NCBI GenBank assembly: GCA_026003475.1
Contig: BPHJ01000001.1
Span: 1,363,189 to 1,427,188, forward strand
DNA from: Candidatus Kapaibacterium sp.
GTDB taxonomy: Bacteria; Bacteroidota; Ignavibacteria; Kapaibacteriales; NICIL-2
DNA: 64,000 bases
Reading direction: 5' to 3'
In this document: piece by piece, positions 13,796 to 61,217 of the stretch
Layout of the letters: the number at the start of each line of letters is the position of its first letter
How positions within the stretch are numbered: the stretch's first letter is position 1
Program-made: the position numbers and the translations under genes
Notes under the pieces: model-generated
Database searches by the model: none
What the model was told of the DNA's origin: nothing
What the model saw: the letters and a program-made list of their open reading frames with translations, nothing else

Positions 13796-14884
13796 ATGCG
13801 CATACTGGATCGCTACATCCTCACCGCAACTGTTGCAAGTATGCTCTTCGCCTTGCTGGCGCTTTCGTTGGTGTTCATAGTGGTCAACCTGATCGAAAGC
13901 CTCGACCGTTTCATAGACCAGCGAGCCAACATTGGTATCATCGTCGGCTACTACCTGTACTTTCTGCCAGAAATCATCAAACTCCTACTTCCGGTGACCG
14001 TGCTGGTTGGAACGCTCTTCGTCGTTGGTAAGCTAACCGACAACTACGAAACAACGGCGATGAAAAGCGCGGGAATTAGCCTGTACCGGTTGATGCTGCC
14101 GCTCCTGCTGCTAAGTGCCGTGATTGCTGCAGGGCACCTCTACTTCAATGGATGGGTTGTTCCCCGCGTCCTAACAAAGAAGTTTGCAATCGAGCGTCAA
14201 TACCTTGGCAGAAATACGGGAGGAATGCAAGAACAACTCTATGGTCTCTACTTACGGGATACACCCGGCCGCATCGTTTCGATTGGTTCCTACAACCTGC
14301 AGACCGCATGCGGCACCGATCTCAGCATCGAAGTCTATCGCGACGAGCAGTATCCTCACCTGCAGCAACGACTCGATGCTCGGCGCTTTTGTTGGGATTC
14401 CGTGACGCGGTCATGGCATGCAGAAGAATGCTTTCTCCGAACAGTAACGGGCACAACGCTGCAGACAACGTATCTGCCGACAATGACCCTTACCCTTGCT
14501 ACTGACCACCACCGTCTGGCCACACTGCAGCGTTCACTGGAAGAGATGACCTACACCGAACAAGCCGACTATATCGCTTTTCTTCGACAGGGAGGACGTA
14601 ACACTCGTCAGCTCGACATTGCCCATGCCGGCGACTATGCTTTCCCTTTTGCGAATATCCTCGTTGTCGCAATAGCTGCACCTTTTGCCTCTGTCAAGAA
14701 ACGGAGTGGACTGGCAGCAAATATCGCCGCCGCAATGACCCTGACATTTCTGTACTTGGTATTGACCAAAATTTTTCAGGCAATTGGGATTGAAACACCC
14801 CTTTCACCAACCATCGTCGGTTGGAGTGCCAATATTGTGTTCAGCGTTATCGCAGCTATTGTCCTTGTCCGAACACCAACCTAA
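13796..14884 (+). CDS. LptF/LptG family LPS export permease
   Basis: 'MRILDRYILTATVASMLFALLALSLVFIVVNLIESLDRFID...YYLYFLPEIIKLLLPVTVLVGTLFVVGKL' YjgP/YjgQ family. Confidence 0.92.
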   Translation: MRILDRYILTATVASMLFALLALSLVFIVVNLIESLDRFIDQRANIGIIVGYYLYFLPEIIKLLLPVTVLVGTLFVVGKLTDNYETTAMKSAGISLYRLMLPLLLLSAVIAAGHLYFNGWVVPRVLTKKFAIERQYLGRNTGGMQEQLYGLYLRDTPGRIVSIGSYNLQTACGTDLSIEVYRDEQYPHLQQRLDARRFCWDSVTRSWHAEECFLRTVTGTTLQTTYLPTMTLTLATDHHRLATLQRSLEEMTYTEQADYIAFLRQGGRNTRQLDIAHAGDYAFPFANILVVAIAAPFASVKKRSGLAANIAAAMTLTFLYLVLTKIFQAIGIETPLSPTIVGWSANIVFSVIAAIVLVRTPT

Positions 14885-14903: not shown

Positions 14904-15701
14904 ATGCCCGAACTGATTTCGCTTGCTTCACCGGAGGGACGGAGATTGTACCGGCAACTGTATTCGACACTGCGCACCGAGCAGCAGCGTGGCGCAGGCG
15001 AAACGCTCCGCATCCTCTGGCAAGTTGCAACTGGCGCCCGCACAGTGCAAGAGTATAGCAGCAACGACATTACCATCCGTTACCCATTAGGGCTCCTTGC
15101 AGGCACACGACTTTGGCTTGAGGAAATTGTCAGCCGGTACTACTACTCAACAGTCCTGTCGTTCGTGTACGGAGGTGCAGCGATCCTGCTGGTTGTCATC
15201 GGACTACGCCGCTTTTCGTCGAGCATCAGCGATACGGTGGTTCTCCTCAGCGTTGGATTGGAAGCACTCCTGCTCCTGCTGCTGTTCACGGTGATGTTTT
15301 TTAGTCCTGCTGAGGATCACGACCCCCACACAGCCGCCATCGGTGAACTTCTCAGTGAAGTTGGGGAGATCGGGCGTGACTATGCCATCGTGCTCCATCA
15401 ATTGGAAACCACGACCACCGCAATCACCGAACTGGTCAGCCAGACAACTCGTCTTGCAGCAGCAGCAGAACAAGCAGCTCAAGCCGCCAGCGCCGCAACA
15501 TCCCCTTCGCCGGCACTGGTCGAACATCTTCGCTCGGTCAATGATGCACTCGATCAATTGCGCACCCGCATCGAGATGCTTGCTGACGCCGTTGGTGCTA
15601 TCAAACAGGACCGTATCGAGCATGCCGTCCGCACGCAGCTTGCACAGTTGCTGGAAGCGCGGATCAGCGATCGCTCACCATCTGCTCCCCCACAGCACTG
15701 A
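14904..15701 (+). CDS. Hypothetical membrane protein with GldL-like architecture
   Basis: Two TM helices 'VLSFVYGGAAILLVVIGLRRF' and 'VVLLSVGLEALLLLLLFTVMFF' (Glu in TM2), then coiled-coil; directly coupled to the next gene. Confidence 0.5.
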   Translation: MPELISLASPEGRRLYRQLYSTLRTEQQRGAGETLRILWQVATGARTVQEYSSNDITIRYPLGLLAGTRLWLEEIVSRYYYSTVLSFVYGGAAILLVVIGLRRFSSSISDTVVLLSVGLEALLLLLLFTVMFFSPAEDHDPHTAAIGELLSEVGEIGRDYAIVLHQLETTTTAITELVSQTTRLAAAAEQAAQAASAATSPSPALVEHLRSVNDALDQLRTRIEMLADAVGAIKQDRIEHAVRTQLAQLLEARISDRSPSAPPQH

Positions 15702-17176
15702 TGCGCCGCCGTGGTATCGAAATCTATTTTGTTCTGTACTTAGCAGCGCTGATGCTGCTGCTCTCGGACTCACCGAAGCAGGAACGGGAGCTTGCAAGCA
15801 CCGCCCTGCGCAATCTGCTCGCTTCCACGTTTAACTTGATCGCTGAAAAACCCACCCTCCTCTGCCGAGCACTCGTGGAGCGCGATTCGCTTGCCTTTCT
15901 TCACTTCGACAGCACCAACACCATCATCCCGACGGGATTTGTTGACAGCATCCACTACCGCATCATTGCCGACGATCAAGCGACAAACCAGCAGCGACCA
16001 CTTGCTATCGGTACACCGACGCGGGTAGGGAACATTCTCTTCACCATCGAGCAAATTGGGCAAGCGCTGCGCTTTCGCTGGACCCCTACATCTGCCCAGC
16101 CAAGCCCGCGGTTGTTCCGCATCCACATCGAGGCGACAGCACTGCCACAACTTCCGCCAACACTTCCCCCTGACCAACGCCAGCAACTTTCGCTTCTGTT
16201 AAGCCAGAGTGACCAGCGACTGCAGAGCCAGACTTCGTTCATCGTTGGCTATCTGCCGCAGCAACCTGCAGTGGAACAAGCACCGCCCCAGCCATTGGAC
16301 AGCACCATCATTGCACGGTTGGAAGAACTCGTTGCCCAACGGCAACCGCAACCCCAGCTCGGAAGCTTTGCTCTTGTACCAGAGCACACAACCATTGGCA
16401 CGCTCCCCTACGTCCAATGGGAAAATCGCATCGCCGTGTATGGGGCATCGCCCTTGCGTGACATTGCTGCTCCACCACAAGTGAGCGGACTACCGTCGGC
16501 TTTCGTCACGATCGAGGGGAATACCATCGTCGTCCGGAGCATCAGCACACAGGCATCCAGCGCAAACGTCAACGTCCGTCTTACCCGCCGAGATGGAGTC
16601 GAAGCAAGCACCACGTTCAGTGTCATCACCTATCCACTCCAGCCACCGATACTCCCCACCGTCATGCATCCAGGCATCGAGTACCGTTTCCTTCCCAATC
16701 TGTCGAATCTTTCGGGCATTGATACACGTGCACTGCTCCGCGATGAGCAGAACGTCATTCGTGCCAGCAGCAGTGGGGAGCCGATGACCTTCACGCCTGC
16801 GCTGAGCGACACCGGACGCTTGTTTTACTTCGAACGGTATGCCGGGAAAGAGCGGATCGGTCAGGTCATCACCATCCCATGTGAAATGTATCCAGCGCCA
16901 GAAATCCTCAGCGTCCGCCGTGATGGTGAGCGTTCGTTCGTGGTTGTCTGTCGGGGGTACGGCTTGGCAACCGACGGACGCTCGCGCCTACGGCTCGACC
17001 TGGATCCATCGAACGGAGCGCGCGTCCAAGAACTCTACGGCGACTACACCTATGATGAGGACCTCCACGCCCGGGTGCAACACTTTCGGCTCACCCTGAT
17101 TGGTGGGGCATCGCTCAAAATTGCCGCTGTCAATGGATACCAACGGCGTTCTCCCTGGCGAGACCTACCGCAGTAA
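15701..17176 (+). CDS. Hypothetical protein with GldM-like architecture (single N-terminal TM, periplasmic Ig-like domains)
   Basis: 'MRRRGIEIYFVLYLAALMLLLS' TM then 470 aa periplasmic, beta-rich; follows a GldL-like gene. Confidence 0.5.
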   Translation: MRRRGIEIYFVLYLAALMLLLSDSPKQERELASTALRNLLASTFNLIAEKPTLLCRALVERDSLAFLHFDSTNTIIPTGFVDSIHYRIIADDQATNQQRPLAIGTPTRVGNILFTIEQIGQALRFRWTPTSAQPSPRLFRIHIEATALPQLPPTLPPDQRQQLSLLLSQSDQRLQSQTSFIVGYLPQQPAVEQAPPQPLDSTIIARLEELVAQRQPQPQLGSFALVPEHTTIGTLPYVQWENRIAVYGASPLRDIAAPPQVSGLPSAFVTIEGNTIVVRSISTQASSANVNVRLTRRDGVEASTTFSVITYPLQPPILPTVMHPGIEYRFLPNLSNLSGIDTRALLRDEQNVIRASSSGEPMTFTPALSDTGRLFYFERYAGKERIGQVITIPCEMYPAPEILSVRRDGERSFVVVCRGYGLATDGRSRLRLDLDPSNGARVQELYGDYTYDEDLHARVQHFRLTLIGGASLKIAAVNGYQRRSPWRDLPQ

Positions 17177-56107: not shown

Positions 56108-58933
56108 TCACTTCGCAACAGCCAGAAATGTTCGATAGGTGCCAGCCGGCGTTGTCAGAACGACTACGACGACACCACTCGGCATCGCATCCAGTGGCAG
56201 CGGAATCATGGCCTGATCACCTGCTGGCAATTCCATCACTCGGCGGAGGAGCACTGCACCACTGAGACTGGAAAGCTCGACAGCATACTGCCCTTGCACA
56301 GGCTTGCGGATTATCAGAGTCGCTTCGTCGGTTGCTGGATTGGGATTGAGTTCCATCGCCATGGATCCGGCGGTGAGCACAACTTCTCGCGGGAAGCAAT
56401 ACGTTCCGAGCGTCAGCATTCCATTCCGCACTTGGACGATAGGTTGTTTGAGAACATCGCGCACCACCAACGAGGTAATGTACACCGAATCACGAAAGAT
56501 CCGTGAGGCTAATCCAATTCCTTCAAACATCCCCAACAGCTGCGGTTCTGTTGTGCGGAGTGTGACTCCTTCACGGAGCACACGAATCGTGTACCACCCA
56601 TCACGGTCTATGCTGGCATCGAGGACAATGCCCGGACGTGTGCTGCGATAGTCGAAAAGCTTACCGTTGATTCGTACCGTGTACTCAATCGTTGCATCAA
56701 TGATCGAATCCTGTTCCTGAGCAAGCTTCACTGTTACGGGAATAGAGATCGCCTCACCAATAAGACCGTGCGCGCTGATCACCTCGGCAACAGCAGTAAT
56801 GCGTTTGTCGTAGGACGAGAGCATGATTGGCTGCACAAACGTCCAGGGACAGGGCAGCACAACATCCAATTCAACACGCACAACGGTTGTATCCGGAACT
56901 TGCGGCGAATACTTGAGCGACACATCGAGTCGTTGACCGACTTGCAGTACTGCACCGACAACGCTGGCAAGAGGTCGTCCGTCAATAGCAAGCCGCGTTA
57001 TCCGAAGGTCGGGATAGTACGGTGTGATACGAATCGCGTTGAGCGTAAGAGGTTCGTCGTCGGTATTGACAAAGTAGATTGTTTGCTCAGGGTATTCGAG
57101 CAATGTTTCTCGGTCGAGAAAGCGATTATCCCCACCACCTGACATCGAAACGGGATTGAATTCTGTGCGGAATGGCTGTGAACTTCCCGGACAGCCGATG
57201 CTATCGTACACTGTTACGGTAAACGTTCCCGGCTGGCTTACAGCAATAGTCTCGGTCGTTTCGCCACTGCTCCATTGGTACCGTGCGAATCCTGGTGTTG
57301 CGCGGAGTTGGATTGTTGTACCAGCACAGAACTTGGTCGGTCCTGTGATTGTCGGTTGTGGTGTTGTATTTGCTCTCACGGTCTGTGGTGGCGAGGTGTT
57401 CACGCATCCGTTGGTGTCAGTAACGGTCACCGTGTAGGTGCCTGCTTGCTGATCGCTGATGGTGATGCGTCGAGTGCGTTCACCGTTTGACCAGATGTAA
57501 TCGGTATAGCCTTCGCCAGCATCGAGCGTGGTTGTCTCCCCTGGGCAAAGGTGCGTCCTCCCATCAACGACGACAACCGGTTGCGGTAAGGGATGAACAC
57601 GGACAAAGGCCTCAGCGTTGTAGTCGCAACCTCTTCCGCGATCGTGCACTGCAAGCGAGACGCGCGAAATCCCACTGCTATCCCAGCGGATGCGGACAAC
57701 GTTGGACATCGGGTCACCGATAATGACACCGCCTGCACCCACAATGCTCCATTGGTAGTCGTAGAGCCGATTGTAGGCAGTTCCAAAAACGATGGTCTTG
57801 CCTTGACAAATCTCTGGAGGCAAGGCGAATTCCGCCAGTGGTTGTTCGCCGACAGTGACAGTCATTGTGGCGCGTTGCGTGCACCCTTGTGCATCGCGTA
57901 CCAGCAAGCGGTACACTCGCGATGCGGGCGGAATAATTCGTTGTACCGCGCTGGTGCGGTCGAACGTGTCTTGCACTGGACGTCCCTGCGCATCGAATGC
58001 TTCCCATTCGAACTGGTACGGTGGCCTGCCACCACTGACCATTGCCGAATCCCCAAGCTGGATTTCCTTCCCAAAACAAATAGACGTATCCCGCAACCGC
58101 ACAACCATTGCTGGCTTGACGCGAACAAGAACGCTATCGGTACGGGTGCAGCCTTTTGCATCCGTAACGGTGCAGTAGTACATCGTCGTTGCTGTTGGGA
58201 ACACTGTGGGATTGGGAATATCCGGCGAGCTAATCATCGTTGCTGGCGACCATGAAATGCGGTACGGCGCTGTACCCCCAGTTGCTAACGGATTGGTACC
58301 AACTTGGACAGGCTCTCCAGCGCAAATGTCCGTCGAACGCCGAGGAATCGCAAGTACAATAGGCTGGGTAACATTGATGCGGGCAGTATCGAAAGCATCG
58401 CACCCACGTCCGTCCCGTACGCGAAGCACAATGGTAAGTTGTTGCACACGCTCAGCGCGAAAGGTCGGATTCGATGAAGTGCTATTCTGCGTCGTTGCCG
58501 GTAAACCGAACCATTCGAATTGGTAGGGTTGCAATCCACCATAGGCGGTTGGTGCTCCACCCAAGATGACATCTTGCCCAACACAGACTTCGATTGTACC
58601 GCCAGCGGTAATTCGCGGTGGCGAGTACATCATCACCAACACGGTATCACGACCGATCGCGCCATCGGCATCGGTGACGGTGAGGATATAGCGCTGCATC
58701 GAGCGAAACGCTGTCACCGTTGGATTTGGTGCAGATGGGTCGTCAAGCCCAGCAGGTGGGTCCCATTGGTAACGATACGGTGCGCGGCCGCCGAGCGCTG
58801 GCGGCGAGCCACCAAGTTGTGCGGTCTGTCCTTGACACAACTGGAGGGTATCCTTCCCGGCATCAACAACGATCTGCGCGTGCACCACATTCCAGGATGC
58901 AAGCACGCAGACGGCGGCAATCATCTTCCGCAT
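56108..58933 (-). CDS. Large secreted repeat protein (SprB/PKD-like repeats) with type IX secretion-type C-terminal sorting domain
   Basis: Signal peptide; repeated 'CxGxxxxLGxxPxxxGGxxPYxYxWxP' units; C-term 'LNPNPATDEATLIIRKPVQGQYAVELSSLSGAVLLRRVMELPAGDQAMIPLPLDAMPSGVVVVVLTTPAGTYRTFLAVAK'. Confidence 0.85.
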   Translation of the reverse strand: MRKMIAAVCVLASWNVVHAQIVVDAGKDTLQLCQGQTAQLGGSPPALGGRAPYRYQWDPPAGLDDPSAPNPTVTAFRSMQRYILTVTDADGAIGRDTVLVMMYSPPRITAGGTIEVCVGQDVILGGAPTAYGGLQPYQFEWFGLPATTQNSTSSNPTFRAERVQQLTIVLRVRDGRGCDAFDTARINVTQPIVLAIPRRSTDICAGEPVQVGTNPLATGGTAPYRISWSPATMISSPDIPNPTVFPTATTMYYCTVTDAKGCTRTDSVLVRVKPAMVVRLRDTSICFGKEIQLGDSAMVSGGRPPYQFEWEAFDAQGRPVQDTFDRTSAVQRIIPPASRVYRLLVRDAQGCTQRATMTVTVGEQPLAEFALPPEICQGKTIVFGTAYNRLYDYQWSIVGAGGVIIGDPMSNVVRIRWDSSGISRVSLAVHDRGRGCDYNAEAFVRVHPLPQPVVVVDGRTHLCPGETTTLDAGEGYTDYIWSNGERTRRITISDQQAGTYTVTVTDTNGCVNTSPPQTVRANTTPQPTITGPTKFCAGTTIQLRATPGFARYQWSSGETTETIAVSQPGTFTVTVYDSIGCPGSSQPFRTEFNPVSMSGGGDNRFLDRETLLEYPEQTIYFVNTDDEPLTLNAIRITPYYPDLRITRLAIDGRPLASVVGAVLQVGQRLDVSLKYSPQVPDTTVVRVELDVVLPCPWTFVQPIMLSSYDKRITAVAEVISAHGLIGEAISIPVTVKLAQEQDSIIDATIEYTVRINGKLFDYRSTRPGIVLDASIDRDGWYTIRVLREGVTLRTTEPQLLGMFEGIGLASRIFRDSVYITSLVVRDVLKQPIVQVRNGMLTLGTYCFPREVVLTAGSMAMELNPNPATDEATLIIRKPVQGQYAVELSSLSGAVLLRRVMELPAGDQAMIPLPLDAMPSGVVVVVLTTPAGTYRTFLAVAK

Positions 58934-59164
58934 GGCGTGCCCGGGAATTGTTATCGGTTTGATTGTTGACAGCATAAACTGTGCCAAAGCTCCTGTGGGA
59001 ACGCCACCTCCGATGCGCTACAAACATACGCACTCGAAGTTACCGCGGTTTAGTCCGCAGCGTGGCATACATACTCCACTGACTACCACACAGAGCCTGC
59101 GACACCAGCTCCCCATACGTATCGGCATTGCACCAAGAAACTACACTCGCAGCGATCCCACGCA

Positions 59165-60737: not shown

Positions 60738-61217
60738 TCACCGTGTAACCTGAAGAATAATGCCTTCTCCGACGTCACTATCGCCACGTACCACCACAAT
60801 GTAGCTTCCGGACAAGACTGACGACAGATCTACGACCACCCGCTGTTCTCCTGGTGAATACCTCGCTCTCGGTACTCGCACAACTACGCGACCATTCATG
60901 TCATAAACAACTATCTCTCTGTGTCCTGCTGCCACTAAACGAAAGCTGACTTCTACTCGGTCCCACGCTGGGTTTGGCGTTACCCACAACACCTCTCGTC
61001 CAGCGGAACGCTGGCCCACAACCTCCTGTGTGGATAGGTGCACTCGCATCCATGTCTGACTTCGGTCGAAGCTCACGTATGCGCTGCCATCACGACCACC
61101 TACCCACAATATCGAACCACTACGACTGGCCCCAACAAATCGCCTCATCACACCATCCGCCGTCGCCATCATTACGCTGGTCAGCGCAACCAAAAGAAAT
61201 TCCACGAATGTCTTCAT
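60738..61217 (-). CDS. Short secreted protein: one Asp-box plus type IX C-terminal sorting domain
   Basis: Signal 'MKTFVEFLLVALTSVMMATA', 'GGRDGSAYVSFDRSQTWMRV', CTD 'VTPNPAWDRVEVSFRLVAAGHREIVVYDMNGRVVVRVPRARYSPGEQRVVVDLSSVLSGSYIVVV'. Confidence 0.75.
   Translation of the reverse strand: MKTFVEFLLVALTSVMMATADGVMRRFVGASRSGSILWVGGRDGSAYVSFDRSQTWMRVHLSTQEVVGQRSAGREVLWVTPNPAWDRVEVSFRLVAAGHREIVVYDMNGRVVVRVPRARYSPGEQRVVVDLSSVLSGSYIVVVRGDSDVGEGIILQVTR

Follow-up and report, generated by a model that had tools for sequence, protein, structure and literature searches.

How does a lineage that possesses the translocon and the cargo, and no recognised motor, power its type IX secretion? The question is raised by two adjoining genes, here termed L and M, in a window of 64,000 nucleotides (the whole stretch of DNA that was analysed), which belongs to a genome assembled as a single contig of 2.16 Mb and 95% complete. 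The genome encodes SprA and a C25-peptidase protein of the PorU type, and three PorV-family proteins and 34 C-terminal type IX tails score above cut-off; sprA and porV, which an earlier sequence-only reading of the locus had singled out for checking, are thus both represented. That reading had also allowed that canonical gldL or gldM might lie elsewhere in the genome, but the curated models detect neither in the 2.16 Mb. Weak matches of the GldL model TIGR03513 to other parts of the genome (best E=9e-4) were dismissed as coiled-coil noise, covering profile positions 85-243 and beyond and leaving the transmembrane (TM) hairpin uncovered. The GldN model has no match in the genome either, an absence that is less certain because control genomes are silent as well. 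Type IX secretion thus seems to operate in this lineage without a known motor, and since SprA, PorV and type IX tails are present and canonical GldL, GldM and GldN are not, the one GldLM-like pair found in it, L-M, is the best candidate for the missing motor.

The locus and its two proteins

Genes L and M share one base, the stop codon of the former and the start codon of the latter lying in TGATG, and the coordinates that the sequence-only reading had assigned to both proved exact (Table 1). An LptF/LptG-family permease gene ends 19 bases upstream of L on the same strand, and LptFG-L-M is a probable operon with LptFG as its first gene; mltG lies downstream of M on the opposite strand, convergent with M and overlapping its end. 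As had been stated from the sequence, no gldK- or gldN-like gene adjoins the pair in the window, and the gldK-gldL-gldM-gldN cluster is absent from the locus, where the order is LptFG-L-M, then mltG. Single-sequence family scans yielded no Pfam or NCBIfam model above cut-off for L or M, and the matches obtained for the two proteins and their family members were rejected as coiled-coil or Ig noise. Elsewhere in the window, a small ORF on the minus strand (60777-60977) carries a type IX C-terminal tail (Por_Secre_tail, 33.9 bits), near which a large secreted-looking protein of 959 aa is encoded (56108-58987, minus strand).

Table 1. Features of the L-M locus, in window coordinates
Feature	Coordinates	Strand	Evidence and remarks
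LptF/LptG-family permease	13796..14884	+	PF03739, E=4e-67; context, not motor part
Gene L, GldL-like two-TM subunit, 265 aa	14904..15701	+	ORF, alignments, hhalign, AlphaFold2 model
L N-terminal cytoplasmic extension, residues 1-80	14904..15143	+	Conservation, AlphaFold2; ends in helix 64-79 before TM1
L TM helix 1, residues 81-104, Y-x-GAA motif and R102/R103	15144..15215	+	AlphaFold2
L TM helix 2, residues 110-133	15231..15302	+	AlphaFold2
E120 codon, invariant TM2 Glu, equivalent to GldL E49	15261..15263	+	Alignment
L C-terminal cytoplasmic helical/coiled-coil region, residues 141-257	15324..15674	+	AlphaFold2, helices 141-198 and 203-257
Gene M, GldM-like subunit, 491 aa	15701..17176	+	ORF, alignments, hhalign
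M single TM helix, residues 5-22, motif [IV]-E-I-Y-F-x-L-Y	15713..15766	+	Alignment
E7 codon, acidic residue at start of M TM helix	15719..15721	+	Invariant in 37/37
M periplasmic domain D1, residues 45-187, beta-rich	15833..16261	+	AlphaFold2
M periplasmic domains D2-D3, residues 224-407, aligning with GldM D2-D3	16370..16921	+	AlphaFold2, hhalign
M periplasmic domain D4, residues 412-489, beta	16934..17167	+	AlphaFold2

Conservation in L was read from alignments of 19 (A1) and 39 (A4) sequences, and its structure was predicted by AlphaFold2 from the family alignment (mean pLDDT 85.8). The model contains helices at residues 10-26, 31-44, 64-79, 81-104 (TM1), 110-133 (TM2), 141-198 and 203-257, in keeping with the two TM helices and the coiled coil recognised from the sequence alone; the TM2 glutamate in GldL-like context, also recognised there, is E120 and sits in a G-x-E-A motif. 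Conservation of this glutamate in orthologues had been set beforehand as a test that could refute the reading, and E120 is invariant in all 39 L sequences. R103 near the end of TM1 is nearly invariant in the same set, and the distance from the GAA motif to E120 is 29 residues in 36 of the 39 proteins. The unusual N-terminal extension, originally put at ~85 aa, is real: it comprises residues 1-80 and has its own invariant positions (G12, R13, W39, G63, G67, E74 and R78 in the 39-sequence alignment). A Foldseek search with the L model gave no match below E 0.85.

M was treated in the same way, with alignments A2 and A3, a set of 37 sequences from which invariant residues were read, and an AlphaFold2 model from the family alignment (mean pLDDT 87.2). 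In the model, a TM helix and a linker helix precede four domains of almost exclusively beta structure, in agreement with the earlier description of an overlapping second gene encoding one short N-terminal TM helix and a long beta-rich periplasmic region. Within the TM motif, E7, Y9, F10, L12 and Y13 are invariant in all 37 proteins. Foldseek matched the M model to hundreds of Ig-repeat proteins, a generic Ig-fold likeness that is uninformative for a four-domain rod; GldM is absent among the 50 matches listed, and PDB profile searches with A2 and A3 found no GldM.

Comparison with GldL, GldM and ExbB

Canonical reference sets were assembled from the phylum of the window and comprised 20 GldL (A5) and 20 GldM (A6) sequences. 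The L profile aligned with canonical GldL at an hhalign probability of 93 and a score of 56.4, pairing the GAA of TM1 with GldL G16-A17-A18 and the TM2 glutamate with its counterpart, and M aligned with canonical GldM at a probability of 61 and a score of 45.9 over D2-D3, at nearly equal positions in the two proteins (profile columns 241-418 versus 246-412). For L, the controls reached 28.8 and 29.6 with reversed alignments, 18.0 with the best of 20 column shuffles and no more than 25.7 with 15 unrelated families encoded in the neighbourhood; the corresponding values for M were 18.3 and 18.6, 19.5, and 23.0. The TM hairpin of L alone scored 29.4 against GldL, as opposed to 8.1 when reversed. 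The profile similarity to GldL and GldM that the sequence-only reading had anticipated therefore lies well above all controls. In the PDB, the L profile reached GldL (7sax_C) at E=0.025, a weak match among coiled-coil matches and the only biologically sensible one.

By the curated models, on the other hand, the pair would go unnoticed: L is not matched in its own genome by TIGR03513 (cut-off 68.3 bits), a model likewise absent among the 25 families listed for the 39 L members, and M is matched neither by TIGR03517 nor by the Pfam models of GldM. The earlier reading of a GldL/GldM-like motor thus stands on all three counts raised in advance, namely profile similarity, conservation of E120 and the absence of canonical gldL and gldM from elsewhere in the genome. 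The pair remains far below the curated cut-offs, which makes it GldLM-like and not a member, and its role in type IX secretion is suggested by gene content. L and M are not filed as GldL and GldM here because they fail the curated models and lack both the characteristic gene cluster and the N-terminal motif of GldM.

With GldL/PorL (TIGR03513), L has in common the two-TM hairpin, the GAA of TM1, a proline after TM2, the C-terminal cytoplasmic coiled coil and the position of its gene directly before an M-type gene. Towards the end of TM1, both have a basic residue (K27 in GldL, invariant in the 20 canonical sequences; R103 in L), and 29 residues is also the commonest GAA-to-Glu spacing in canonical GldL. 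Canonical GldL lacks the conserved N-terminal domain of ~80 aa, its alignment starting near the TM region. The motor of Flavobacterium johnsoniae cannot function without E49 of GldL, whereas E59 is required for gliding, not for secretion (PMC8986121). At this position, ten residues beyond the E49 equivalent, L has only hydrophobic residues, in contrast to the acidic residue of F. johnsoniae GldL.

M resembles GldM/PorM (TIGR03517; PF12081, PF21601, PF12080) in its single N-terminal TM helix and its length of ~500 aa. Four periplasmic domains are likewise predicted, a resemblance qualified by D1, which is beta-rich in M and helical in GldM. The TM stretches also differ: that of GldM reads PRQKMI-N-LMY and is devoid of acidic residues (P8, R9, Q10, M12 and Y17 are invariant in A6), whereas M has [IV]EIYFxLY with its invariant glutamate, and the P-R-Q motif before the TM helix is absent from the M-family alignments. 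With the 5:2 motors of the MotA/ExbB/TolQ type (PF01618), the pair shares the general layout of a multi-TM ring protein and a single-TM periplasmic partner. L of the window has no Pfam PF01618 match, its genome encodes three separate PF01618 proteins, and comparison with 30 ExbB-type sequences from the order revealed no profile similarity (hhalign score 13.5).

Distribution of the pair and its relatives

A scan of bacterial genomes with M returned 20 loci, in each of which an L gene precedes M, and the nearest named relatives are Kapaibacterium, Chlorobiota and Ignavibacteria MAGs. One M and one full-length L were found per genome in 34 of 34 sampled genomes of the Kapaibacteriales-type order; outside it, the pair occurs in a few close outgroups, and among the 396 genomes of the phylum that were surveyed, one further genome of the class (G128) carries it. 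L and M are adjacent in the loci examined. The order LptFG-L-M is kept in most relatives, LptFG not being seen beside the pair at four loci (L013, L015, L016, L018), and some relatives have TolC/MacAB-like genes as neighbours. Canonical GldL is present in 95 of the 396 phylum genomes and in none of the class of the window. Of 96 good class genomes, every one has SprA and 47 have the L hairpin family, so that the family is not universal across the class. About half of these genomes thus have SprA and neither the hairpin family nor, in those sampled, canonical GldL.

Elsewhere in the class, outside the order, an L-like hairpin gene is followed directly by an M-like gene with a YFVLY TM helix (L074, L075, L078, L079, L143-L145). 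These L-like genes match the L hairpin at an hhalign probability of 99 and keep the invariant glutamate and arginine; they differ from L in having no N-terminal domain, and their M-like partners are often only ~200 aa long. At these loci and at L141, the two genes form four-gene clusters with two genes for secreted proteins. Such clusters occur several times per genome in G252 and G055, G252 having at least three L-M-like pairs, and their proteins, where examined, have no Pfam or NCBIfam match above cut-off. At L016 and L150 it is the long L-M pair that is followed by two secreted proteins, an arrangement that connects it with the four-gene clusters. The secreted proteins are similar to one another across lineages; their identification as GldN was rejected, as there is no similarity (score 24 over 11 columns).

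Most members of the order have one or two additional hairpin proteins of ~320-520 aa with extra N-terminal hydrophobic segments, which match the L hairpin at a probability of 98. The one in the genome of the window (G000:C1:1108066-1108584, minus strand; L065:6106-7665, minus strand) is ~445-519 aa long, depending on the start codon, and has a GldL-type hairpin with a glutamate in its C-terminal half, separated by a long stretch from extra N-terminal TM segments. Its gene and the PorU-like C25 gene downstream of it are 32 bases apart, a neighbourhood that is not kept in the relatives L067 and L070.

A putative motor and its alternatives

L and M very probably constitute a GldLM-type motor pair, as judged from sequence comparison, and probably represent a divergent sister form of GldL and GldM with the same way of working. 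If the pair is a motor, the gene content makes it likely that type IX secretion is what it drives. The full reading, in which L and M are the outer ring and the inner axle of a proton-driven motor of the GldLM kind that energises type IX secretion in Kapaibacteriales, is the one we favour, with somewhat better than even confidence. We propose that Kapaibacteriales lost, or never had, recognisable GldL, GldM and GldN.

Stoichiometry, proton use and rotation are suggested here by analogy. Several L subunits, possibly five, would encircle the TM helices of a dimer of M. Protons may pass through the L-M interface by way of E120, assisted by the TM1 arginine and possibly by E7 of M, all of which are conserved. 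Driven in this manner, M would turn or bend, its predicted rod of four beta domains would transmit the motion across the periplasm, and its tip may push outer-membrane machinery serving the SprA/PorV translocon. In the cytoplasm, the conserved N-terminal domain of L and its coiled coil probably serve to anchor the ring or to regulate it. A divergent relative retains only what the mechanism requires; hence the elements common to GldLM and L-M (the GAA motif, the TM1 basic residue, the TM2 glutamate and M domains D2-D3) point to the functional core, and the differences (the N-terminal domain, D1, the missing E59 and the extra glutamate in M) are testable.

Several observations sit uneasily with a type IX role. 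The pair has no physical or genetic link to any type IX gene, its neighbours being LptFG, mltG and, in some relatives, TolC/MacAB-like genes; the hairpin protein encoded near PorU could be the ring subunit instead of L; and the presence of SprA without the hairpin family in about half of the class means that type IX secretion there uses another or an unrecognised motor. The pair might then be a GldLM-type proton motor that powers a different envelope process, such as lipid/LPS traffic, outer-membrane constriction or motility, an alternative that we regard as unlikely, though of some weight. It would fit the gene order of most relatives, in which the pair probably shares an operon with an LptF/LptG-family permease, and the several L-M-like pairs per genome in some members of the class, which suggest diversified roles. 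The position of LptFG may be incidental, however, since LptFG has a housekeeping role and an ATPase of its own, and the permease is not seen beside the pair at the four loci named above. The order has type IX secretion and no other recognised motor for it, and M is unique in each genome, which argues for the type IX motor.

The missing P8-R9-Q10, the non-helical D1 and the lack of GldM among the listed Foldseek matches also count against the favoured reading. If the pair were no motor, L would be a coiled-coil scaffold in the membrane, M an Ig-like protein of structural function in the periplasm, and the GldL look a convergence of hydrophobic helices and Ig folds; the empty single-sequence family searches, the commonness of Ig-like domains and the generic Ig matches agree with this. 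It is nevertheless quite improbable, given that the glutamate buried in TM2 never varies, that the TM1 arginine is conserved and that the profiles of both proteins at once score far above shuffled, reversed and unrelated families. Less improbable, but still doubtful, is that L-M forms a rotary motor type of its own, in which ring and axle alike have acidic residues in their TM regions (E120 and E7, respectively), and which is part of a wider family of motors in the class that bridges GldL and MotA/ExbB. To our knowledge, the essential proton-binding acid of known 5:2 motors is thought to reside on one side only. This doubtful reading would also take in the proteins of ~320-520 aa, in which the GldL-type hairpin would form the C-terminal half of a MotA-like layout with extra N-terminal TM segments.

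On the favoured reading, L-M is a candidate driver of type IX secretion for a lineage in which translocon and cargo are present and a recognised motor is not, and the pair is a warning that current GldL and GldM models miss motors in annotation. No account of it was found in the literature on GldL/GldM relatives of Kapabacteria and Ignavibacteria that was searched, most subscription journals lying outside that search.

A third hairpin type of ~320-345 aa was encountered at several loci (L068:5408-6424, minus strand; L071:4948-5979, plus strand; L073, L084, L080 and L148), followed by a gene for a large ATPase in L071 (AAA_16) and L084. A GldL/GldM/GldN-like cluster that the models recognise weakly occurs in a different lineage of the phylum (L081:3328-6136, minus strand), with GldL at E=1.5e-7, below cut-off, and the second domain of GldM at E=0.007; this cluster is another divergent, putative type IX motor.
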